A stretch of 26,136 nucleotides of DNA from a virus. The notes beneath the pieces are model-generated. The model saw nothing but the letters and a program-made list of their open reading frames with translations. It was not told the DNA's origin and ran no database searches. Within the stretch, counting starts at the first letter, position 1, and the number at the start of each line of letters is the position of its first letter. Where the stretch lies: the IMG/VR virus record IMGVR_UViG_3300025896_000172, positions 1 to 26,136 of that record; one strand, given 5' to 3'. Both the position numbers and the translations under genes were made by a program. Shown piece by piece: positions 7,557-25,136 of the stretch.

Positions 7557-9551
7557 ATGCCGCAACCCAATACCCAGCCCAGCAATGTCACGCGCCTGAT
7601 GCCTTCGCAACTGATGGAAGCGCGTCTGTTACCCGAGACCTACAACGCCGAGACCCGCACCATCGAGGTGACCTGGGGGAAAGGCGTCCGCGTCCGCCGT
7701 TTCGATTGGTGGGAAGGACGCTACTACGATGAAGAACTCTCGATGGAGGCCGGCGCGGTCGATATGTCGCGCCTGGAATCCGGCAACGCTGCTGTCTTGG
7801 CGGATCATGGGACCTGGTCGATCCGCAATCAGATCGGCGTGGTTGATGGCGCGACGATTGTGAGCGGCGAAGGCCACGCCACGCTTCGCCTGAGCGAGCG
7901 CGAAGATATTTCCGGCATCGTCCAGGACATTCTCGCCAAGATCATCCGCAACATCAGCGTCGGTTACACCGTCCAGCGCTATCAGATCGATGAAGCCCCT
8001 GGCGAAGTCCCGGTCTATCGCGCCGTGGAATGGCGTCCGCACGAGATCAGCTTCGTCACCGTGCCCGCCGACGCATCGGCCACCACCCGTAGTTCACCCG
8101 AATCCGCGCCGGGCGCTTCGCCCTGCGTGTTCACCCGCGCCACCTCGGCGCAACCCACCCCGGAGCCCGTCATGCCCCAATCCGCTACTGCAGCTGCTGC
8201 TGCCACCCGTGCCGCCGCCGAGGCGGATCCCGTGAACCTGACGCCGGCCGCTGCTACGGCACCGACCGCCGCCGAAATCTCCGCGCAGGAAACGCAGCGT
8301 TCGGCAGACATCGTCGACCTCTGCGCACGCCACGGCCATGCCGACCGTGCCGCCGACTACCTGCGAGCCGGCCACAGTGTCGACAAGGTGCGCCAGTTGA
8401 TCCTGGACGAACAGGTCAACCGCGACACCGCTGCGGGTGGCCACGTCAACCGCGTGCAGGCCGGAGCGGATGAAGCGGACAAGTTCCGCGGCGCCGCTTC
8501 CGACGGACTGCTCGCCCGCGCCCTGATCATCAATCCGACCACCAAGAGCCGCTACGCGGTGGACGGCGCCAACCCGACTCGCGGCATGGCCCTGCGCGAA
8601 CTGGCGCGCATGTGCCTCACCCGCATCGGCGTGCGCACCGAAGGCATGTCCGCGCTGGAGATGGTGGGGCGCGCCTTCACCCAGAGCGGCAGCGATTTCC
8701 CGATCCTGCTCGAAAACGCCATGCACAAATCGCTGCAGGCGGGGTACGCGATCGCCGCCGATACCTGGCAGCGCTGGTGCGCCAAGGGCACGGTCAGCGA
8801 CTTCCGGGCGCATCCTCGCTATCGCGTGGGTAGCCTGGGCAACCTCGATTCGTTGAACGAGCTGGGCGAGTTCAAGAACAAGGCGATCCCCGACGGCGAG
8901 AAGGCCAGCATCACTGCCGGCACCAAGGGCAACATCATCAACCTGTCTCGCCAGGCGATCATCAACGATGACCTCGGGGCCTTCATCGGCCTCGCTTCCA
9001 TGCAGGGTCGGGCCGCGGCACGTACCGTCGAGTCCGACGCCTACGCGCTGCTGGCCAGCAACCCGACCATGGGCGACAGCGTGGCGCTGTTCGATAATGC
9101 GCACAACAACCTGGCCGGCGCCAGCGCACCGACCGTGACCACCGTCGATGAGGCCCGCGTCAAGTTGGCCGGCCAGAAGGACATCAGCGGCAACGATTTC
9201 CTGGACCTGCGTCCGGCTGTGTTCCTCAGCGGCCTGGTCTATGGCAGCACCGCCCGCGTGATCAACACCGCCCAGTACGACCCGGATACCGCCAACAAGC
9301 TGCAGAAGCCGAATATCTGCGCCGGCCTCTTCCGCGACGTGGTGGATACGCCGCGCATCACCGACACCAAGTGGTACCTGTTCGCGGATCCGAACGAGGC
9401 GCCGGTGATCGAGGTCGCCTTCCTGGAGGGCGAAGACCAGCCCTTCCTGGACCAGCAGGACGGCTTCACCGTCGACGGTTCGCGCTGGAAGGTCCGCATG
9501 GACTACGGCGTCGGTGCCATCGACTTCCGCGGCGCGGTCCGCAACGGCTGA
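7557..9551 (+). CDS. Prohead protease/major capsid protein fusion
   Basis: This 664-aa polypeptide joins two functions usually on separate genes. Residues 20-175 look like an HK97-type (S78) prohead protease: VLADHG gives the candidate catalytic His84, ISVGYT gives Ser134, and PHEISFV carries Glu163. An Ala/Pro/Thr-rich linker (about 175-245) and a helical scaffold-like segment (about 245-310) follow. The rest is the HK97-fold major capsid protein, ending in the typical EDQPFLDQQDGFTVDGSRWKVRMDYGVGAIDFRGAV. By analogy the protease cleaves the linker and scaffold during maturation. An in-frame ATG with its own Shine-Dalgarno sequence lies in the linker at 8172. Lambda itself uses an unrelated ClpP-like protease (gpC). 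Confidence 0.92.
   Translation: MPQPNTQPSNVTRLMPSQLMEARLLPETYNAETRTIEVTWGKGVRVRRFDWWEGRYYDEELSMEAGAVDMSRLESGNAAVLADHGTWSIRNQIGVVDGATIVSGEGHATLRLSEREDISGIVQDILAKIIRNISVGYTVQRYQIDEAPGEVPVYRAVEWRPHEISFVTVPADASATTRSSPESAPGASPCVFTRATSAQPTPEPVMPQSATAAAAATRAAAEADPVNLTPAAATAPTAAEISAQETQRSADIVDLCARHGHADRAADYLRAGHSVDKVRQLILDEQVNRDTAAGGHVNRVQAGADEADKFRGAASDGLLARALIINPTTKSRYAVDGANPTRGMALRELARMCLTRIGVRTEGMSALEMVGRAFTQSGSDFPILLENAMHKSLQAGYAIAADTWQRWCAKGTVSDFRAHPRYRVGSLGNLDSLNELGEFKNKAIPDGEKASITAGTKGNIINLSRQAIINDDLGAFIGLASMQGRAAARTVESDAYALLASNPTMGDSVALFDNAHNNLAGASAPTVTTVDEARVKLAGQKDISGNDFLDLRPAVFLSGLVYGSTARVINTAQYDPDTANKLQKPNICAGLFRDVVDTPRITDTKWYLFADPNEAPVIEVAFLEGEDQPFLDQQDGFTVDGSRWKVRMDYGVGAIDFRGAVRNG
8162..8174 (+). 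promoter_or_regulatory. Possible internal ribosome binding site and in-frame start in the protease/capsid gene
   Basis: GGAG at 8162-8165 stands 6 nt before an in-frame ATG (8172, residue 206) in the linker between protease and capsid domains. Use of this start would give a 459-aa product containing only the scaffold-like segment and capsid domain. Nested in-frame starts are known in phage head genes, such as lambda C/Nu3. Whether ribosomes use this one cannot be told from sequence. Confidence 0.4.
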
Positions 9552-14851: not shown

Positions 14852-17599
14852 ATGGCACAGCCCGCAGCCAATCTCCGCGTCCGTATCTCGGCGGATCTAA
14901 ACGACATTAAATCCGGCTTGGGTTTGCTGCGTGGAGAGTTGGCGAAGGTCAAGGCAGAGGCGGCGAAGTCGGCGCCAGATTCCAGCGCCTGGTCCACTGG
15001 CATCGGCAAGATCCGCACGCAGCTGGGAAACCTGTTGGGTGCGTATGTCGGTGTACAGACGCTGACAGCGGGCGTGCACGGCTTGGCCGATGCTCTGGAG
15101 CGTGCAGACCGGATCGGTGAACTTGCGCTGCAGAGCGGAATGTCCACGGAGTCCCTCTCGCGCCTGGCGTATGCAGCGCAATTCTCCGGCGTGACCATCG
15201 AGTCGTTGAACGGCGCCGTCGTCAAGCTCAGCAAGGGCATGGTCGCCAGCGAGAAGGTGATCAACGGCGTCGGAGTGTCCACGCGCGATGCCGCGGGAAA
15301 CTTCCGGTCGACCGAGGAGGTCATCCTCGACCTTGCCGATGTCTTCGCAAGCCTTCCGGACAGCCCAGAGCGTGCCGCGCTGGCCGTCAAGTTGTTTGGC
15401 AGGTCGGGGGCTGAACTGATCCCGCTGCTGGTCGAAGGCAAACAGAAGCTGCAGGAATATGGCGACCAGGCCGCCGCCACCGGCAATGTCATCAGTGGTG
15501 AGGCTGCTGCTTCAGCAGGTGAGTTCAACGACAATCTGGATCGCCTGAAGGGCGCGCTTGCCGGTGTTGCCAACGAGACCATCCGCAATGTGGTGCCGGC
15601 AGTTTCCGGCTATGCAGAGGAAGCAGCCAAGGCCGGCCAGACCAGCAACTTCGCAGCGCAGGGTGGGCAGTTCCTGGCGCGCGTACTGAAGGTGGTTGCC
15701 GCCGGCGCCATCATCGTCAAGAACGTGGTCGAGGGGCTGGTCAATGTCCTCGCTTTCTGCAACACGGCGGTCACCACCATTGCCGGCACCATCGTCGGGA
15801 CGTTCGCCCGCTCGCTTGGCGTGGTCGCCCGCGCAGGCAAGGGGCTGCTGTCCGGCGAAAACCCGTTCCTCGTGTTTGCGAAGTTCACCAAGGACGCCGG
15901 CGCAACCGTCAAGGCGAACCTTGAAGGCTTGATCTCCGGCAAGAACAGTATCGCCAACGGCTTCAAAGCCATGACGTCCGGCGTATCGGAGGCCGCCAGC
16001 GACATCGCCAACGTGGGCAAGCTGTTCGACGACGCGGCAGCCAATGCGACGTCGGCAACGAAAGGAATCGATTCTGCTGCGCAGCAAGCAACCCCCGCGT
16101 CGCAGGCGTTGCTCGAAACCATCCGGAAATTGCTGGGTGAGGGTTCGGGTGGGGACAAGGGCAAGAAGTCAGGCACCAGCGCGAAGATCGAGCATATTGC
16201 CGCCAGCACTGCCTTGCTGCAGGACAGCGTCAAGCGCGCACAGGAGCAGCTTGACCAGCAGCTGGAAGACCAGCAGATCAGCATCGCCGACTACTACGCC
16301 AAGCGCGTGGAGCTGCAACAACGCTTGATCGACCTGCAAATCGAGCAGGCACAGTCCGAGCTCGAAGTCACCAAGGGCCTAGACCAGCGTCGGCGCCTGG
16401 AAGAGCAGATCATCATCCTGCAGCGTGATCGTGGCGAAGTCGCGGTCAATGCCGCACGCGAGCAGAAGAAGGCCGAGGAAGAGCTCAACAAGACCAAGCT
16501 CGAGGGGTTCCGCACCCAGCAGTCCCAGATCAGCGGGACACTCTCGGCAACCGAGGGCTCGATCTCGGCGCAGATGGATGCCGGCACGCTGGGCGCCATC
16601 GAGGGCGAGCGCCGACTCAAAGAGATACGGCAGCAATCGTTGGATCAATTGCTCGCCTTGCGGGCCCGCCAGTTCGCATGGCTGGCGGGCATGACGAAGG
16701 CCGACCCGCAGTATGCCGCTGCCCAGCAAGGCCTGCTGGAGCTCGACACCAGCATCGCGAACATCCAGGCATCGATGAGTCAGTTCAGCCAGGGCATCGC
16801 CGATGCCGGCCTGGGCGCACTGAACACGTTCTGGAACAACCTGCTCGACCGGACACAGTCGACGCTTGACACGGTCAAGCAACTCTTCAGCGATTTCGCA
16901 ACCAATGTGTTCGGGACGGTCGCCCAGGACTTCAGCAAGAACATCGTGGATACGATCCGCGGCTGGGTATCCAGCTTCGGCAGCGACCTCGCGGGGTCTA
17001 CCGCCAATGCTGCTACTGAGACCACGGCGGCTACGGCGGCAGCTGCTGCCACGACTGCTGCTGCGGCGACGGCTGGCGCGACTACCACCGCATCGGCGGT
17101 CGCTGCGGCCGCCACCACGACAGCGGGGGCAACGACGGCGGCCAGCATCCTGACGGCGGCGGGTGCTGCCGTGGGTGCTGCGTTGATAAGCTCGGCGACC
17201 ACTGCCGCGGCGATCATGCGCGCCGCAAGTGCGTTGAGCAGTTTCGGTGCTGCCCACGGGGGCGGAACGGCCGGTTCGCTGACCATGACCCGGCACAACA
17301 TCAATCCGTTGGTGTTCGGGAACGCCCCGCGCTATCACGGCGGCGGCATCGCTGGCCTTCGCCCAGGTGAGCTCCCGATCATCGTGGAAGAAGGCGAGCG
17401 CATCCGCACAAAGGAGCAGGAAGCTGCGCTTCAGGAGCAGCTCAAGCGCGGCGGCAACGCCAGCCAAGGCATCGTCACCACCCCCATCGTCGCCATCGGT
17501 GACGACGCCATCGCCGATGCGCTGGCCAGCGCTGCCGGTGAGCGGGCCGTGGTCACCATTGTCCGCCGCAACTGGGGCGGACTGAGCCGGGGCACCTGA
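14852..17599 (+). CDS. Tail tape measure protein
   Basis: This 915-aa protein sets tail length and is later ejected with the DNA. The N-terminal part contains the family signature KLFGRSGAELIPLLVEGKQ (about 182-200). A hydrophobic region follows at about 275-330 (VLKVVAAGAIIVKNVV, TTIAGTIVGTF). A coiled-coil segment rich in Gln and Glu spans about 450-560. A remarkable Ala/Thr-only tract lies at about 719-788, and the C-terminus contains GGGIAGLRPGELPIIVEEGERI, common at the end of siphovirus tape measures. At roughly 1.5 angstrom per residue the tail would be about 135-140 nm (inference). The stop shares one base with the next start (TGATG). Confidence 0.93.
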   Translation: MAQPAANLRVRISADLNDIKSGLGLLRGELAKVKAEAAKSAPDSSAWSTGIGKIRTQLGNLLGAYVGVQTLTAGVHGLADALERADRIGELALQSGMSTESLSRLAYAAQFSGVTIESLNGAVVKLSKGMVASEKVINGVGVSTRDAAGNFRSTEEVILDLADVFASLPDSPERAALAVKLFGRSGAELIPLLVEGKQKLQEYGDQAAATGNVISGEAAASAGEFNDNLDRLKGALAGVANETIRNVVPAVSGYAEEAAKAGQTSNFAAQGGQFLARVLKVVAAGAIIVKNVVEGLVNVLAFCNTAVTTIAGTIVGTFARSLGVVARAGKGLLSGENPFLVFAKFTKDAGATVKANLEGLISGKNSIANGFKAMTSGVSEAASDIANVGKLFDDAAANATSATKGIDSAAQQATPASQALLETIRKLLGEGSGGDKGKKSGTSAKIEHIAASTALLQDSVKRAQEQLDQQLEDQQISIADYYAKRVELQQRLIDLQIEQAQSELEVTKGLDQRRRLEEQIIILQRDRGEVAVNAAREQKKAEEELNKTKLEGFRTQQSQISGTLSATEGSISAQMDAGTLGAIEGERRLKEIRQQSLDQLLALRARQFAWLAGMTKADPQYAAAQQGLLELDTSIANIQASMSQFSQGIADAGLGALNTFWNNLLDRTQSTLDTVKQLFSDFATNVFGTVAQDFSKNIVDTIRGWVSSFGSDLAGSTANAATETTAATAAAAATTAAAATAGATTTASAVAAAATTTAGATTAASILTAAGAAVGAALISSATTAAAIMRAASALSSFGAAHGGGTAGSLTMTRHNINPLVFGNAPRYHGGGIAGLRPGELPIIVEEGERIRTKEQEAALQEQLKRGGNASQGIVTTPIVAIGDDAIADALASAAGERAVVTIVRRNWGGLSRGT

Positions 17600-18774
17600 T
17601 GGGCGTCCCGGTTCCCTGGACCTTCGCCGCCGCCGGCACCGTCTCCGCACAACTGGCCTGGCTCACCGACGTCCTGCCCGCCGTCACCGGCCCCGAGCAG
17701 ACCCGTCGCCTGCGCCTGGCCCCGCGCGTCACCATCGCCTTCGACGGCCTGGAATCCGCCCGCAACCGCCGCTGGATGGAAACCCTGCTCAACGCCAACG
17801 GGGCAGGGCGCTGGGAAGTGCCCCTGGTCATGGACACAGCCCAGCTCGCCGCACCGCTTGCCGCCGCCAGCAGCAGCGTTCCCTTCGACACCAGTGACCG
17901 CCGCTTCACCGCCGGCGGCAAGGCCCTGCTGATCGCCGAGGATCCGCGTCGCTTCGAAGTCGTCGAGATCGACACCGTCGAAGCCGACCACCTCGCCCTG
18001 GTCGGCGCCACCACCTTCGCCTGGGCCACCGGCACCCGCGTCGTGCCGTTGCGCACCAGCCACCTGGACGGCATGCCCACGCTGTCGCGCTTCACCGGCG
18101 ACGATTCGCCGTACCAGGTTTCCTTCCTCCTGGACGAATTGCTGGAAGTGGAACCCGACCCCGGCGCCGCCAGCTACCGCAGCGCGCCGGTGCTGGAGTG
18201 GACGCCGGTGTGGACCAGCGACCCGGAAACCACGCCCGAGCGCCAGCTGCTCACCGTCGACGAAGACACCGGCCCCATCGTCACCACCGACCTGGTCGGC
18301 ATCCCGCTGGGCCGCACGGGCATGTCCTTCGCCCTGGTCGGCCGTCCGGCCATCGCCGCGTTCCTGGGCCTGCTGTATGCCCTGTGCGGCCGCTGGGCGC
18401 CGATCTGGGTCCCCAGCTGGGCGCAGGACCTGCGCGTGGTCGCCACCGTGGCCAACGGCGCCACCACCGTCGACGTGGAGCACAGCGGCCTGTCCGCGCG
18501 GCCGCTGGCCATCAACCGCCGCGACATCCGCCTCCAGCTGGCGGACGGCACCGTGCTGTATCGGCGCATCACCGCGGCCGTGGAGCAAAGCGCCGACGTC
18601 GAACGCCTGACCCTGGACAGCGCCATCGCCACCGGCTTCGCCGCCAGCGCGGTGGCGGTCGTGTCCTTCATGGCCCTGTGCCGGCAGGACACCGACGTCA
18701 ACAAGCTGATCTGGTGGAACTACGACACCGTGCAATGCGATCTGTCGTTCCGGGCGGTGAAGCATGGCCTTTGA
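17599..18774 (+). CDS. Distal tail / tail hub protein, first tip gene
   Basis: This 391-aa protein directly follows the tape measure, the place of the distal tail or hub proteins. I do not see a named signature, but the sequence is beta-rich with Trp-containing segments such as VLEWTPVWTSDPE and RWAPIWVPSWAQDLRVVATV, and VVEIDTVEADHLALVG as in domains of tail hub proteins. It has no signal peptide or membrane helix. Codons are extremely GC-biased, unlike the fibre genes downstream. Overlaps of 1 nt upstream and 11 nt downstream tie it to its neighbours. Its partner downstream has a DUF2163/BR0599 organisation, as in other long-tailed phages and gene transfer agents. Confidence 0.65.
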   Translation: MGVPVPWTFAAAGTVSAQLAWLTDVLPAVTGPEQTRRLRLAPRVTIAFDGLESARNRRWMETLLNANGAGRWEVPLVMDTAQLAAPLAAASSSVPFDTSDRRFTAGGKALLIAEDPRRFEVVEIDTVEADHLALVGATTFAWATGTRVVPLRTSHLDGMPTLSRFTGDDSPYQVSFLLDELLEVEPDPGAASYRSAPVLEWTPVWTSDPETTPERQLLTVDEDTGPIVTTDLVGIPLGRTGMSFALVGRPAIAAFLGLLYALCGRWAPIWVPSWAQDLRVVATVANGATTVDVEHSGLSARPLAINRRDIRLQLADGTVLYRRITAAVEQSADVERLTLDSAIATGFAASAVAVVSFMALCRQDTDVNKLIWWNYDTVQCDLSFRAVKHGL

Positions 18775-19867
18775 CGATTTCGAACAGGGCCAGTGGACCG
18801 GCAAGCCGATCCACCTTTTCATTTTCACCCTGCAGGCCAAGGTCTGGCGCTTCGCCACCTGCGATCGCGACTACGTGGTTGGCGCCAACACCTATCTGGC
18901 CGCGCCGATCAGCCGCAGCGCGATCGAGCAGACGGCCGAGTCGGCGAAGGATGAGCTGACCATCCGCATGCCGTACCTGCGCGACCCGAATGCGGAGGAA
19001 TTCCCGCCCACGCAGGACCTGGGCGATGTGTGGTTCCCCTTCGTGCCCAGCGACAAGGTCCATGTCACCTGCCTGGCCACGCACTTCGGCGACACCGATC
19101 CGCCGCATGTGGAGTGGATGGGCGAAGTGGTGCAGCCCAAGTTCACCGATGTGGAACTGACGCTGGTCTGCGAGCCCAGCAGCGGCACCGACAAGATCCG
19201 CAACCTGGGGGCGAAGTGGCAGCGGGCTTGCTGGAAGACGGTGTATTCCACGGGGATTCGTGGCTGCAACCTCTTGCCCAACGGCATCCCGATCACGGTT
19301 CCGGCCGGCTTGACTGCGGTCAGCGGCAATAACCTGACGGCAGCGGAGTTCACCACGCAGGCGCGCAGTTTCGTGGGCGGCAAGGTGCGTTGGTACACCG
19401 AGGAAGTAGTCCCCGGGGAAGGACTGGTGCCGCACGTGGCCACCATCACCGCCCACGCCGGCACCACCCTTACCGTGGACGATGCCGATGGGCTGGCGGT
19501 GGGTGATGTCGTCACCGCCTATACCTTGCCCTTCGCCCTCACCGCCACGCTGTACGCCGTCAACGGCCTGACCGCCACCGCCGCCGCCTTTGGCGCCGCG
19601 CCGCTGTCGCTGGCCGGCGGCACCGCGACCTGGCTGCGTGAGGATGGGCTCATCGAGCGCCGCTCCATCATGCGCCACACCGGCAACGACATCGTGCTGC
19701 TCTACGGCGCCGCCGATCTGGCCGCTGGCCTGGCCGTCACCGTGTTGCCCGGCTGCCCGCGCACCTGGGCCGCGTGCGAGGCGCGCGGCAACACGATCAA
19801 CAACGGCGGCGCGTTCTTCAAGCCGATCAAGAACCCGACGGACGGAGTGAGCATGTCATGGGGCTGA
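18764..19867 (+). CDS. Tail tip protein, DUF2163 / BR0599 type
   Basis: This 367-aa protein resembles the DUF2163/phage BR0599 family, which forms part of the tail tip next to the central J-like protein. The N-terminal half (about 15-165) has the DUF2163 pattern, including WMGEVVQPKFTDVELTLVCEP and CWKTVYSTGIRGCNL. The C-terminus has the BR0599 hallmark GCPRTWAACEARGN followed by NNGGAFF at about 331-353. Two related-looking beta modules lie in between (about 203-250 and 282-330), each with GG-x(3)-W, an I-x2-H-x-G turn and a closing hydrophobic strand, which suggests internal duplication. Overlaps on both sides indicate coupled translation. Confidence 0.75.
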   Translation: MAFDDFEQGQWTGKPIHLFIFTLQAKVWRFATCDRDYVVGANTYLAAPISRSAIEQTAESAKDELTIRMPYLRDPNAEEFPPTQDLGDVWFPFVPSDKVHVTCLATHFGDTDPPHVEWMGEVVQPKFTDVELTLVCEPSSGTDKIRNLGAKWQRACWKTVYSTGIRGCNLLPNGIPITVPAGLTAVSGNNLTAAEFTTQARSFVGGKVRWYTEEVVPGEGLVPHVATITAHAGTTLTVDDADGLAVGDVVTAYTLPFALTATLYAVNGLTATAAAFGAAPLSLAGGTATWLREDGLIERRSIMRHTGNDIVLLYGAADLAAGLAVTVLPGCPRTWAACEARGNTINNGGAFFKPIKNPTDGVSMSWG

Positions 19868-20286
19868 TCGACACGCTGCGCCACTGGTACGACGACAAGC
19901 GCTGGCGCTTCCGCTACTGGTGGCTGGATACGCGCAGCGGTGAGCGGGCGCATTGGGTGTGTGTGTGCATGGCCGCCCTGGTCTTCATCGTGTTGTTGAT
20001 CCGCATGGTGCTGGTGGCGCTGGATCCGCCGCCGGTGGCGCAGATGAAGGCGATCTGGCCGATCTGGGTGATCCAGCTGATCATCATGGTCGTGGCCGCG
20101 GTGATTTCCTACGCCATGCGCCCGAAGCCCGAGGCGCCCAAGCCGCAGAAGGGCGAGGCACCCACCACCGAGGACGGACAGAGCGCCAAGCACTATTTCG
20201 GCACGTGCTGGGTGGAAGACGAATTCATTCTGGCGTGGAAGCAAATGGGCACGATCCCGATCAAGTCGAAGGGTGGCAAGAAGTGA
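19858..20286 (+). CDS. Two-span membrane protein in the tail-tip region
   Basis: This 142-aa protein has an aromatic, basic N-terminus (WYDDKRWRFRYWWLD), membrane helices at about 36-55 (CMAALVFIVLLIRMVLVAL) and 68-88 (WVIQLIIMVVAAVISYAM), a Pro/Lys-rich linker (PKPEAPKPQKGEAP), and a conserved-looking tail (WVEDEFILAWKQMGTIPIKSKGGKK). The tail reads like a short beta segment found near J-like proteins. Membrane helices in a tail-tip gene could be a tip component that enters the host membrane, or an assembly or exclusion factor. The ATG at 19858 lies 10 nt inside the previous gene, and the stop overlaps the next as GTGA. Function is not established from sequence. Confidence 0.65.
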   Translation: MGLIDTLRHWYDDKRWRFRYWWLDTRSGERAHWVCVCMAALVFIVLLIRMVLVALDPPPVAQMKAIWPIWVIQLIIMVVAAVISYAMRPKPEAPKPQKGEAPTTEDGQSAKHYFGTCWVEDEFILAWKQMGTIPIKSKGGKK

Positions 20287-20510
20287 TTGTCACCTCACGC
20301 CATCTATTCACCATTCCCGGCTACAGCACCCGCAACGGTTTCTGCCGCGGCAAGTCGCGGGAGTGGTTCAAGCGGCACGGTCTGGACTGGCGCTCCTTTG
20401 TGCGCCACGGCATCCCTGCCGAGGTGCTTGAAGCCACCGGCGATGGCCTGGCGATGGCGGTTGTGAAGTGGGCGCGCGAGTGCGAAGCGCAGGAGGCGGC
20501 GCGTGGGTAA
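20283..20510 (+). CDS. Small conserved-looking phage protein before the J-like gene, function unknown
   Basis: This 75-aa soluble protein starts with GTG in a GTGA overlap and ends 8 nt inside the J-like gene. It begins MIVTSRHLFTIPGYSTRNGFCRGKSREWF and continues with KRHGLDWRSFVRHGIPAEVLEATGDGLAMAVV, a small alpha-helical layout with many basic and aromatic residues. I recall similar short proteins just upstream of tip proteins in other Proteobacteria phages but know no function. It lies where lambda encodes K and I, yet shows no NlpC/P60 or other peptidase motif. Confidence 0.65.
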   Translation: MIVTSRHLFTIPGYSTRNGFCRGKSREWFKRHGLDWRSFVRHGIPAEVLEATGDGLAMAVVKWARECEAQEAARG

Positions 20511-23500
20511 GGGAAGCAAGCCCACCGTCGGCTACTGGTACCTGCCTGCGTTCCATGTGGGCCTGGGCATCGGCCCGATCGATGCCTATCTGGAAGCCCG
20601 CGGCGGCGACAAGACGGCGTGGGCCGGGCGGCTGACGGCCAGCGGCACGATCCACATCAACGCACCCAACCTGTGGGGCGGCGAGAAGGACCAGGGCGGC
20701 ATCGTCGGCGACATGGACGTGATGTTCGGCGAGGCCGGCCAGATGCCGAACCCGTACCTGATCAGCACCTTCGGCGACCAGCAGCCCGCGTGGCGCGGCC
20801 TGGCCACACTGGTGTTCAAGGGCGGCAAGTACGGCGCGATGAGCCCGTACCCGCAGCCGATGAGCCACAAGATCGAGAAGATCGTGGAGGGCTGGGATGG
20901 GGATGGCTGCTGGTATCCGGAGAAGGCGAGGATCGCGTTCGGTGCGGATACGGGTGCATTGACCGATGTCGTTGCCGTGGGTGCCACCGCGCGGCCATCT
21001 GCCGGAGGTGCGGATTGGAGCCGTTCTACATCCCCCGTGGGTTTCATCGCCGGGTATGCCATCGGCGCTGGCGACCGCTTTATCGCATGGGACCTCAGCG
21101 CGGCGGGTTACACAGATGACGCTTTGGTGTGGCACGGTTCAGCTGGCTTCCTCGGTGGAAGCGGCGGTGCCCGCATGGGCGTCTACTTTGGCGGTTCTAT
21201 CCTGATCGCGGGCGGTCTCTCCGGCTATTTCGTGTCGACAGATAAGGCGGTCAGTTTCAGCGTTCGCGCCTATCCTGACTTCCCCAGGCTGACTCTTGTC
21301 GCGGGGTCGGCATCGCTGATGGTGGCGATGGGGCCCTATGACGCCACACTCTTCAGCGCCACGTCCGTCGAGGGGCCGTGGTCAGTTGGCGCGATGCACG
21401 GCTTGACCGGTAGCCATGCGGCTTTCGATCCGAAAATGAATCAGTTCGTGTTCGTGGGTAGCGATATCGCCACGTCAGTTCCGCGTGCAATCGCCACGGA
21501 ATCCGGTGCGCTGATCACGGATCTGGTGCTGCCCGCCTTCGCCACCGCATCGACCTGCATTTGCGCCATGTTCTCGCCCGCCGCCAGCGGTCACGGCGTT
21601 ATCGGTACCAATAGCGGTGAGATCGCGTACAGGCACAGTGATGGGACATGGCTACTGTCCGCCGACGTGCTTGGCGAGCCTGGCATTGGCGTGCAGTGGG
21701 TCGGGAATCGCTTCATCATGTGGGGCGCGACTCTGGCCAAGGAAAGCGCGACGGGTCAGTCGTGGACCAGCATTGACTTACAGAACACCGGCGTGAAAGC
21801 GATCGCGACGGGTGCCACCATCGACACCCGCAACTACGCCCTTGCCGGCATCAACCCCGCCCACGCCCTCTATTACGCCCGCACCCACAGCGAGATCGGC
21901 CGTGAGCCCATCGCCAACATCAACGACACCAGCTCCCGCGCTTCCGCCGACAAGCTCTACGCCGAAGCCTTCGGCATCTGCACCGAATACGACCCCTCCG
22001 CCGAGAGTCTGGTCGAGTACGAGCAGCGCATCTGCAACCTGATCGGCGGCAGCATCAACCGCAGCCTGGTCGACGGCCAGTACTACCTGGACCTGGCGCG
22101 CGGCGACTATGTGCTGGAGGATCTGCCGATCCTCACCGACGACGACATCCTGAGCTTCGCCGAGCAGCCGTCGATCCTGGACAACGCGATCAACAGCGTC
22201 AGCGTGAAGTATTTCGATCCGGTGCGCAAAGAGACCATCGTCACTCCCCCGGTGCAGGCGCTGGCGCTGATCGATGCCTTCGGCACCATCCATCAGGTCA
22301 AGGACTACCCGGAAATCCCGACTGCCGCACTGGCGGCGCGCATCGCCGAGCGGGATCTGCGCACCAGCGTCACCCCGACCCGCGCTTTCGACCTTGTTAC
22401 AAAGCGTAAGCCCTACGATTGGCGGCCAAACACCTATTTCCGCCTGCAGGTGCCCAAGCGCGGTATTGCGGACATGGTGTGCCTCCTGGGGTCGAAGGAA
22501 ACTGGCACGCTGAAGTCTGGGGCGATCAAGATCACGGCCGTGCAGGACATCTACAGTTTGCCGGACACCTCCTACATCGAGGTGGAGCACGGTGTGGATA
22601 CCCGGCCGCCGCAGACGCCGGTTGCCATCGTGCTTCAAAGAGTTTTCGAAGCGCCGTATATCGAAGTTGTGGCGAATTTGTCCCGCGCTGATTTGGCCGC
22701 GCTGCCTGGGGAAACGGGCTACCTGCTGGCGGTTGCCGCAGATCCGGCTCAGAGCCGCGACTACACGATGCGGGTCGCACCTGATGGCGGCGACTACATT
22801 GAGGCCAACAACGGCGACTGGTGCCCCAACGCCACCACGGTGGGAGGCATCGGCCTGGAGCCGGGTCCAGTGGTGGTGGCGTTGGCCAGCAGCGACCGAC
22901 TGGATCAGGTGGTAGTAGGTAAGCCGGTACTCATCGATGACGAGATCTTCCGGGTCGATGCCATCGATATCGTTGCGCCTTCGGTCACCCTGGGCCGCGG
23001 TTGCGCCGATACGGTGCCGGCAATCCATGCGGCGGGCAGTCGCTTGTGGTTCTTCGCTGATCACGCCGCGATCGACACCACCGAATACACCGACGGCGAG
23101 ACTATCAACGTCAAGTTGCTGACCAACACCGGAAGCCAGCAGTTGGCCGAAGACCTGGCCACGGCCATGCCGCTCACCTTCGACCAGCGACAATTCCGCC
23201 CGTATCCACCCGGGTTGGTGCGGATCAATGGCGAAGCGGCTCCGCCGTATTTGTTCGGCGAGATCACTGCGACTTGGGCGCATCGCGATCGCGAGCTGCA
23301 GGCCGACCAACTGGTCGATCACGAGATGGCCAGCATCGGCCCGGAAGCGGGCCAGACCACGACCCTCCGCTGGTACCTGGACAATGTGTTGGTGCAAACC
23401 CACAGCGCACTCAGCGGCACCAGCCAGGCCTACACACCCTCCGCCGATGGCCAATTGCGCATCGAAATCGAATCCGTGCGCGACAGCTTGGCCAGCGCGC

Positions 23501-23610
23501 AGAAACACGTCCGCACGTTGACCTACACCACCACCGAAAGCACGCCGCTTGAAACGCTGGCGGGTGACTTGATCACCACGCTGGCGGGCGACCCGATCTT
23601 CATGAGGTAA
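20503..23610 (+). CDS. J-like central tail tip / host specificity protein with a large inserted domain
   Basis: This 1035-aa protein is the central tip component that contacts the host receptor. The N-terminal region (1-142), with GPIDAYLEARGGDKTAWAG and CWYPEKA (136-142), and the region from 451 on, with NPAHALYYART and then DKLYAEAFGICTEYDP, are the hallmarks of phage tip proteins of this class. In relatives I know, these two blocks are separated by only a short stretch. Here about 300 residues intervene, with Asp-box-like pieces near 245, 285, 377 and 413 that suggest a beta-propeller. The middle (500-700) is the usual hub region, and the C-terminus (about 920-1035) is a beta domain ending in a duplicated TLAGDLITTLAGDP. 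The start overlaps the previous gene by 8 nt. Confidence 0.88.
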   Translation: MGKGSKPTVGYWYLPAFHVGLGIGPIDAYLEARGGDKTAWAGRLTASGTIHINAPNLWGGEKDQGGIVGDMDVMFGEAGQMPNPYLISTFGDQQPAWRGLATLVFKGGKYGAMSPYPQPMSHKIEKIVEGWDGDGCWYPEKARIAFGADTGALTDVVAVGATARPSAGGADWSRSTSPVGFIAGYAIGAGDRFIAWDLSAAGYTDDALVWHGSAGFLGGSGGARMGVYFGGSILIAGGLSGYFVSTDKAVSFSVRAYPDFPRLTLVAGSASLMVAMGPYDATLFSATSVEGPWSVGAMHGLTGSHAAFDPKMNQFVFVGSDIATSVPRAIATESGALITDLVLPAFATASTCICAMFSPAASGHGVIGTNSGEIAYRHSDGTWLLSADVLGEPGIGVQWVGNRFIMWGATLAKESATGQSWTSIDLQNTGVKAIATGATIDTRNYALAGINPAHALYYARTHSEIGREPIANINDTSSRASADKLYAEAFGICTEYDPSAESLVEYEQRICNLIGGSINRSLVDGQYYLDLARGDYVLEDLPILTDDDILSFAEQPSILDNAINSVSVKYFDPVRKETIVTPPVQALALIDAFGTIHQVKDYPEIPTAALAARIAERDLRTSVTPTRAFDLVTKRKPYDWRPNTYFRLQVPKRGIADMVCLLGSKETGTLKSGAIKITAVQDIYSLPDTSYIEVEHGVDTRPPQTPVAIVLQRVFEAPYIEVVANLSRADLAALPGETGYLLAVAADPAQSRDYTMRVAPDGGDYIEANNGDWCPNATTVGGIGLEPGPVVVALASSDRLDQVVVGKPVLIDDEIFRVDAIDIVAPSVTLGRGCADTVPAIHAAGSRLWFFADHAAIDTTEYTDGETINVKLLTNTGSQQLAEDLATAMPLTFDQRQFRPYPPGLVRINGEAAPPYLFGEITATWAHRDRELQADQLVDHEMASIGPEAGQTTTLRWYLDNVLVQTHSALSGTSQAYTPSADGQLRIEIESVRDSLASAQKHVRTLTYTTTESTPLETLAGDLITTLAGDPIFMR

Positions 23611-23616
23611 CTGACC

Positions 23617-24432
23617 ATGCCCAACATTTCAGAAATGGCAAACCCCGTCGCCTTGACCGGCCTGGAGCTCGTTCCCGGCCTGCAAGGCGACGACGATGTG
23701 GGTGTGCCGCTGCTGGCCTTGGGCGATGCCCTGCCGCGCGGCGCCGTCTTGCTGTTGCGCAAGCCCTTCCTGGCCGACACCGCCAGCACCACTGCGGGCG
23801 ATCCCGGCGCGGGCAATGTGCGCTGGAATCACGCCACGCAGGCCAGCGCGACGGAGATCTACATCGATGACGCCGATGCTGCTGCGGGCGATGTGTCCGG
23901 GGTGTGGGCTACTTTGCAGGTTGGCGGCTTCCTGTATCTGCAGGGCGTGGTTGGCGCAGCGCGGGCGAAGTATCAGAAGTGGGAGGTCTCAGCGAAGGTC
24001 GATGAAGCCGGTTACGGAAAGTTGACCGTGACGCTGGTTTCCAGCGCGGGCAGTTTCGCCGACGATGAGGCGGTGGAGCTGACGTTGCAGCAGCCTGATC
24101 CCTCTGAATCGGCGGCCGTTAAGATCACCGCCTCGATCGCCGGCGGTACGATCACGCCGGATGGTGATACTGACTTGGTGCGCCCATCATCTACGTTGTC
24201 TTCAGCACTGACTATTGCGAACCCAGCAACGACCATCATTGACGGTTGGGGCATGGTGATAGAAATTAAAGACGACGGCACGGCGCGGGCTCTGACTTGG
24301 GGCAGCAAGTACGCCAATCGTATCGGAGCACTTCCAGCGAATACCGTGGCCGGAAAACAGCACGTAATCGGAGTCTCCTACAACGCCGCCAATGACAAGA
24401 TGTATTGCGATTTCGCACTGGTGCAAGCATGA
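23617..24432 (+). CDS. Tail fibre-like structural protein
   Basis: This 271-aa protein begins MPNISEMANPVALTGLELVPGLQG, an opening commonly seen in short tail fibre or tip-attached proteins, where this part binds the virion. The middle (about 60-160) is a beta-rich domain containing TEIYIDDADAAAGDVSGVWATL and KWEVSAKVDEAGYGKLTVTLVS. The last 100 residues (from ITPDGDTDLVRPSSTL) look like a separate distal domain with a closing DKMYCDFALVQA strand. Its DNA from about 24180 on is richer in A/T and uses codons unlike the upstream genes, pointing to an exchanged receptor-binding end. AGG lies upstream, and the stop overlaps the next gene as ATGA. Confidence 0.65.
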   Translation: MPNISEMANPVALTGLELVPGLQGDDDVGVPLLALGDALPRGAVLLLRKPFLADTASTTAGDPGAGNVRWNHATQASATEIYIDDADAAAGDVSGVWATLQVGGFLYLQGVVGAARAKYQKWEVSAKVDEAGYGKLTVTLVSSAGSFADDEAVELTLQQPDPSESAAVKITASIAGGTITPDGDTDLVRPSSTLSSALTIANPATTIIDGWGMVIEIKDDGTARALTWGSKYANRIGALPANTVAGKQHVIGVSYNAANDKMYCDFALVQA

Positions 24433-25136
24433 GGCCATACGATTTGATGACGCGGGTGGCAAGTGCTGCGAGTGGCGGCGGTGGCGGCGATCCTCACTTC
24501 GCAAACGTGATCACGCTATTCCATTTCAACGGCACTAACGGCAGCACTTCATTCCCTGACCAAAAAGGAAATGCTGTCACCGTCGAGGGCGGCGCAGCTA
24601 TTACGACCGCCTCTGGATTTGATGGCTCCGAAGTATCGTTCGACGATACTGCCGGTGGAATCTACTCAGCGCTTGGCACTGGCGGGCTTCTTGGCGATAT
24701 CTGGACGATAGAGTGTTTCGTCACACCTGCCGCCTTGGCCTCGACTCGTTATTTTTTGAATCTTCAGGCTACTGACAATGGCAACTACATATATATCCTG
24801 ATTAATGCCAACGGCTCTATTTCTGGGAATCACCGAGGCGGTTCAATTCCTGCTTCCGCTGCTGGAGCGTTTGCGGTGAACACTCGGACACATTTAGCCG
24901 TCTGCGCCGATGGGGCAAAAGTTCGGATTTTCGCTGGAGGCGTTTTGGCAAGTAGTCGCGATCTAAGTGGGAGTGATCCCGCCGGTAGCGTCACACTCCG
25001 GCCTGCGCGTATTTTCAATCTCAACTTCGGCGGAAGTCGCTTTAAGGGAAAGATGGACGAGCTGAGGATCACCAAAGGCGTGGCGCGCTATACATCAACC
25101 TTCACTCCGCCGACAGCTGCGTTCCCGAATTCGTAA
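24429..25136 (+). CDS. LamG-like (concanavalin/jelly-roll) tail protein
   Basis: This 235-aa protein has the layout of a LamG/laminin-G-like jelly roll: a short N-terminal linker with a GGGGG run, then VITLFHFNGTNGSTSFPDQKGNAV, WTIECFVTP in the core strands, THLAVCADGAKVRIFAGGV, and the closing FKGKMDELRITKGVARYTSTF-x-PP-x-AAFP typical of such domains. Family members bind sugars or proteins at the cell surface, so a receptor-binding tip role is likely. The start at 24429 is set by an ATGA overlap with the fibre gene. The DNA is clearly less G+C-rich than the rest of the window, with many T- and A-ending codons, suggesting recent acquisition. Confidence 0.8.
   Translation: MRPYDLMTRVASAASGGGGGDPHFANVITLFHFNGTNGSTSFPDQKGNAVTVEGGAAITTASGFDGSEVSFDDTAGGIYSALGTGGLLGDIWTIECFVTPAALASTRYFLNLQATDNGNYIYILINANGSISGNHRGGSIPASAAGAFAVNTRTHLAVCADGAKVRIFAGGVLASSRDLSGSDPAGSVTLRPARIFNLNFGGSRFKGKMDELRITKGVARYTSTFTPPTAAFPNS

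Follow-up and report, generated by a model that had tools for sequence, protein, structure and literature searches.

A predicted beta-propeller cassette in a laterally exchanged slot of a JBD30/B3/Chi-type siphophage tail hub

What are the roughly 300 residues that separate two conserved blocks in the tail hub of an uncultured siphophage, how were they acquired, and what might they do at the tail tip? The question is raised by a virus record of 26,136 bases with siphophage-type genes (the window, that is, the whole stretch of DNA analysed), in which an earlier note, working from the sequence alone, had described a beta-propeller-like insertion between the blocks CWYPEKA and NPAHALYYART of a J-like protein. 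The genome setting, the hub gene and the borders of its insert are as follows.

7557-9551: capsid gene (Phage_capsid_4)
14852-17599: tape measure gene
17599-20510: tail assembly genes
20503..23610, + strand: tail hub (J-like) protein, 1035 aa, GTG start; phrog_1101 tail protein, E = 1.6e-215
20908..20928, + strand: upstream border block CWYPEKA, residues 136-142; shared by relatives whether or not they have an insert; DNA similarity ends here
20926..21849, + strand: inserted cassette, residues 142-449, predicted seven-bladed beta-propeller (AF2 model, PDB fold matches, 2cn2 profile match)
21853..21885, + strand: downstream border block NPAHALYYART, residues 451-461; shared by relatives whether or not they have an insert; DNA similarity restarts here

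The hub belongs to the JBD30/B3/Chi-type family (phrog_1101), with homology found on both sides of the insert. In particular, phmmer matches the JBD30 hub (8rk3, E = 4.7e-126) and the Chi hub (8vjh, E = 3.7e-103), and the JBD30 homology falls in two blocks of the window hub, residues 5-144 and 447-1006. The genes upstream match phrogs 1082, 778 and 1196, in agreement with the B3 gene order, and the downstream open reading frame (23617-24432), where this hub type would have its receptor-binding or fibre gene, is weakly assigned to phrog_3030; 754 phage records match the hub, none of which covers 80% of the query. In JBD30 the hub forms a trimer at the tail tip and gp54, the receptor-binding protein, is a separate protein that docks on domain VII; the hub family has the fold and domain organisation of T5 pb3 (PMC11445458). 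The earlier note's premise that J proteins bind receptors with their C-terminus does not apply here: the window hub is of the JBD30/B3 type, stopping after a fibronectin-like region with no long C-terminal fibre or C-terminal receptor-binding region, and the JBD30 receptor-binding protein is a separate gene product. Two other genes of the window have features of their own. The long open reading frame at 19953-20510 is matched by the tail assembly chaperone family phrog_1196 over its C-terminal half only (residues 94-185), and its true start is probably internal; the capsid gene encodes a single 664-residue protein in which a prohead-protease-like domain (weak Peptidase_S78 match) is followed by the major capsid domain (strong Phage_capsid_4 match).

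Between the two blocks, which are adjacent in phage B3 and in the JBD30 and Chi hubs, the window hub has 308 extra residues, so that the described insertion of about 300 residues is borne out. JBD30 gp53 and the Chi minor tail protein are homologous to the window hub over nearly all of the remaining protein and have a short loop where it has the cassette; at this site the loop is 6-19 residues long in most cultured relatives, including 6-12 residues in B3 and phiSHP3, and the slot corresponds to the loop at residues 142-149 of JBD30 gp53. The codons of the insert are indeed less GC-biased than its flanks, with a third-position GC of 0.72, compared with 0.915 upstream, 0.814 downstream and 0.834 in the rest of the gene (Fisher P = 6e-5). 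Taken alone, this difference is weak evidence of acquisition; the real evidence comes from comparison with relatives. Direct searches returned little: the window insert has no Pfam or PHROGs match, its BLAST search against phages and plasmids gave nothing at E = 1, BLAST searches with the insert homologues L006, L133 and L157 found nothing among phages, and a profile search of 369 bacterial genomes gave only weak matches, the best of which sits in a frame with four stops.

Insert homologues were identified in IMG/VR by a hub profile with L006 at its head, and all of them (L006, L130, L131/L132, L133 and L157) occupy the same place in their hubs. Their identity to the window insert is 36% for L133 and 28-29% for L130, L131/L132 and L006; L157 is the more canonical insert homologue. 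The AF2 model (m76d127496907), calculated from six sequences for window residues 136-462, the insert alone without the assembled hub, has a pLDDT of 66.9 and a pTM of 0.71; two sequences alone gave a pLDDT of 28. Confidence is near 80 across the core (residues ~184-426) and below 50 at both ends (residues 136-183 and 427-462), including the first blade. The predicted insert is all-beta, with 24 elements and about 22 strands. Foldseek against the PDB placed propellers in the top rows, with E-values down to 3.6e-8, the best rows being six-bladed kelch designs, and VIA gave Z-scores of 17-18 for RACK1, streptogramin lyases, GH74 xyloglucanases and other propellers, mostly seven-bladed. Further, the viral-library fold matches are phage BNR and DUF6242 proteins, and the best PDB match of the six-member insert profile is the GH74 xyloglucanase 2cn2 (E = 9e-4). 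The structure prediction and the structural search therefore agree with the propeller-like reading of the earlier note, and the insert is predicted to form a beta-propeller with a circular array of four-stranded blades.

The repeats point the same way. Asp-boxes follow the pattern S/T-x-D-x-G-x-T/S-W/F and sit in the turn that precedes the last strand of a blade; in known propellers they lie between the third and fourth strands. Across the five insert homologues, 24 matches to the pattern were found, compared with 3.1 expected by shuffling (maximum of 11 in 2000 shuffles), and they align at seven positions that are 38-45 residues apart. The aromatic or equivalent residues of the seven boxes in the window protein are 172, 210, 252, 293, 338, 383 and 421.

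20998..21018, + strand: Asp-box position 1, SAGGADW (166-172); aligned with SPDGKNW in L157; Trp172 invariant in 6 homologues
21112..21132, + strand: Asp-box position 2, TDDALVW (204-210); aligned with STDGVAW in L006 and STDGRNW in L157; Trp210 invariant
21235..21258, + strand: Asp-box position 3, STDKAVSF (245-252); aligned with SYDKGGSF in L133; Asp247 invariant
21364..21381, + strand: Asp-box position 4, SVEGPW (288-293); Trp293 invariant in 6 homologues
21496..21516, + strand: Asp-box position 5, TESGALI (332-338), degenerate; aligned with TTDGVEF in L132 and TVDGTSF in L157
21634..21651, + strand: Asp-box position 6, HSDGTW (378-383); Trp383 in 5 of 6 homologues
21745..21765, + strand: Asp-box position 7, SATGQSW (415-421); aligned with SLDFGATW in L133, a full Asp-box; Trp421 invariant

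The Asp-box-like pieces of the earlier note are therefore real, and so is their spacing of about 40 residues, but the window's copies are degenerate (the window insert by itself has no match to the final Asp-box patterns), and the four pieces listed there, near residues 245, 285, 377 and 413, fall short of the seven aligned positions. Within the well-modelled part, the AF2 model puts each Asp-box between two strands, in the turn that leads into the last strand of its blade. The off-diagonal self-similarity of the insert profile (best repeat pair) is higher than in any of 200 column shuffles, and 42.5 residues is the best period; a periodicity test on the same profile was not significant (P = 0.135), internal repeats are significant in the profile comparison and not in the single insert sequence, and the Asp-box homologues have no BNR match in Pfam. 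Overall, these alignments place the insert with the Asp-box (BNR) repeat family. It resembles the known members (GH74 xyloglucanases, YCF48, phage BNR/DUF6242 proteins) in fold, repeat length and Asp-box positions, and it differs from them in the low sequence identity of its fold matches (6-18%), its degenerate Asp-boxes and the lack of a recognised catalytic site. The number of blades is less firmly set: seven Asp-box positions stand against the six-bladed top Foldseek rows and, because the model ends have a pLDDT below 50, the case for a seventh blade depends on the Asp-box alignment together with the seven-bladed fold matches.

The family includes sialidases and GH74 endo-xyloglucanases, and a GH74 enzyme, 2cn2, is both the top profile match and among the best fold matches; the propeller could accordingly cleave glycans, as a sialidase-like or GH74-like enzyme, and so remove surface polysaccharide at the tail tip. 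We consider this improbable. None of the homologues has the RIP motif ([FYV]RI[PA]) or a conserved arginine triad; Asp247, in an Asp-box, is the sole charged insert residue present in all six homologues, and a few others are found in five of the six. GH74 enzymes pair two propellers and have their active site in the cleft where these meet, whereas a single propeller is present here, and the other recognised cassettes of the slot are typical binding modules. The sialidase-like or cleaving activity raised in the earlier note is not supported, as the homologues have no conserved catalytic Arg/Glu/Tyr set. Identity as a sialidase (GH33 and relatives), which calls for an RIP motif and an arginine triad with a Tyr/Glu nucleophile pair, was rejected.

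How the cassette came to this position is seen by comparing related hubs, which were extracted from 252 loci in IMG/VR, prophages and phage records; the loci were collected by conserved patterns including the borders, and the counts describe this hub family rather than all phages. The slot has a short loop of 5-25 residues at 129 of the 252 loci and 100-432 residues at the other 123, with none between; near-duplicates inflate these raw counts, and the non-redundant set has 135 hubs, 50 of them without an insert. The earlier note overlooked the slot itself: close relatives carry wholly different domains there. The long inserts form 17 sequence groups, an approximate number that depends on the threshold of the BLAST single linkage. 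Propellers occupy the slot at seven loci. Other inserts are von Willebrand A domains with a complete MIDAS metal site (D-x-S-x-S, T, D pattern); CBM67-like (galactose-binding-like) domains have a profile whose best match is the rhamnosidase 3w5m (E = 1e-4), over a stretch that we take to be its CBM67 sugar-binding domain, with weaker matches to GH2 sugar-binding domains; the slot of L018 has a laminin-G-type lectin; and several groups have no recognised fold.

Several individual loci deserve mention. The hub of Aeromonas phage BUCT551 (L005, 1954-3246) has a 432-residue insert whose fold was not recognised, and that of the cultured Ruegeria phage DSS3-P1 (L267) has about 220 extra residues here, with a border less clear than in close relatives. 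In Rhodobacteraceae prophage hubs (L105-L124, for example L108 5751-6344), the von Willebrand A cassettes match the opening part of the tail assembly family phrog_15205, and the later part of that family matches the window protein at 18764-19867; because the family matches both, this type of von Willebrand A domain may also be joined to a neighbouring tail gene. Downstream in the window, the open reading frame at 24405-25136 contains a laminin-G-type (ConA-like) lectin domain (Pfam E = 2.6e-12) and has a GC3 of 0.54, clearly below its neighbours. The L018 slot has the same lectin type, so that lectin modules occur as genes of their own as well as inside hubs.

The cassette is laterally exchanged at one fixed slot with sharp borders, and the acquisition suggested by the earlier note is upheld by hub pairs with matching cores and unrelated inserts. 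For example, the hub cores of L012 and L014 are 91% identical and their inserts are unrelated, with blastn similarity ending no more than about 6 nt from the slot; across five pairs with differing inserts, blastn similarity of 77-89% on both flanks stops within a few bases of the slot. The nearest hub to that of the window (L015) has a core 71% identical and a von Willebrand A domain in place of the propeller. On a quick FastTree tree of the 135 hub cores, at least 54 changes of insert type are needed, against 7 in presence or absence, which suggests that a slot once opened mostly stays open while its content is replaced repeatedly. The conserved borders suggest homologous recombination through them; the blocks CWYPEKA and NPAHALYYART would probably serve as homology arms for in-frame cassette swaps.

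The same comparison bears on what the cassette does. The main rival to host-surface binding is that it works inside the virion, as a baseplate brace or a docking scaffold for side fibres, and that its diversity matches different fibre proteins. The JBD30 hub does provide attachment sites for fibres and receptor-binding proteins (PMC11445458), and propellers, including the kelch and RACK1 matches, are often protein-binding platforms. However, 129 of the 252 related hubs work without a domain in the slot, lectin-like and CBM-like folds are found among the cassettes, and the content changes far more often than the presence, as expected of a host-facing part; we judge a scaffold role unlikely, if less so than an enzyme. 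That the insert is a passive decoration without a specific ligand would fit the degenerate Asp-boxes of the window, but its 308-codon frame is intact, invariant fold residues are common to five homologues, and the same slot has repeatedly received known binding folds, which makes this the least credible of the alternatives, with very little probability.

Because most of the other recognised cassettes are binding folds and the content is replaced quickly, accessory host-surface binding is the best explanation and the most likely role of the cassette by analogy with them. The whole reading, that a seven-bladed Asp-box propeller in a recombination-exchanged hub slot of a JBD30/B3/Chi-like siphophage acts as an accessory host-surface adhesin, we hold to be probable, at about two chances in three. 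A slot that takes domains of up to about 430 residues would face the exterior of the hub and, the hub being a trimer, three propellers per virion would be expected around the tail tip. There they would bind a host surface glycan or protein, as an accessory to the main receptor-binding protein; that the ligand is a glycan is only guessed, from the CBM67-like and lectin-like cassettes of the same slot.

Known tail-tip decorations provide the closest comparison. In the evolved Dit and Tal proteins of Gram-positive siphophages, carbohydrate-binding modules are found in Dit loops or, less often, in the gp27-like N-terminal domain of Tal, and evolved Dits have been shown to bind the host (PMC7291167). 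Here, too, a foreign module sits in a loop of a tail-tip structural protein, with a binding role that we infer; unlike those systems, the carrier is the JBD30/Chi-type hub of Gram-negative phages, the modules share a single slot, bounded by CWYPEKA and NPAH, and their diversity is far greater, with propellers and von Willebrand A domains among them. By this analogy, the hub slot would be the Gram-negative siphophage counterpart of the evolved Dit/Tal decorations. The megatron protein of roseophage R4C and RcGTA has a carbohydrate-binding domain set into a mannanase-like peripheral domain (PMC10276861); it, too, is a tail-tip protein of the hub family with an additional carbohydrate-binding-like domain on the outside, but its folds are mannanase-like and CBM11-like, and their position may differ from that of the slot. 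The literature searched, with few subscription papers in it, contained no report of this slot, nor of von Willebrand A domains in phage hubs.

The host range of Gram-negative siphophages is usually sought in their fibres and receptor-binding proteins. A broader proposal, to which we assign even chances, is that this hub loop is a general receptor-module socket of these phages, in which recombination through fixed conserved borders swaps propellers, integrin-like von Willebrand A domains, CBM67-like domains and lectin-like domains in frame, altering adhesion while the receptor-binding protein and fibres stay untouched. If so, the slot may help to decide which bacteria a phage grips. The slot can be found from sequence by its two short border blocks, and its inserts amount to a natural collection of adhesion-type domains that one phage site already accepts. 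Its content has changed at least 54 times across the 135 hubs of the tree while the surrounding hub stayed conserved, which would make it a second site at which specificity may evolve.
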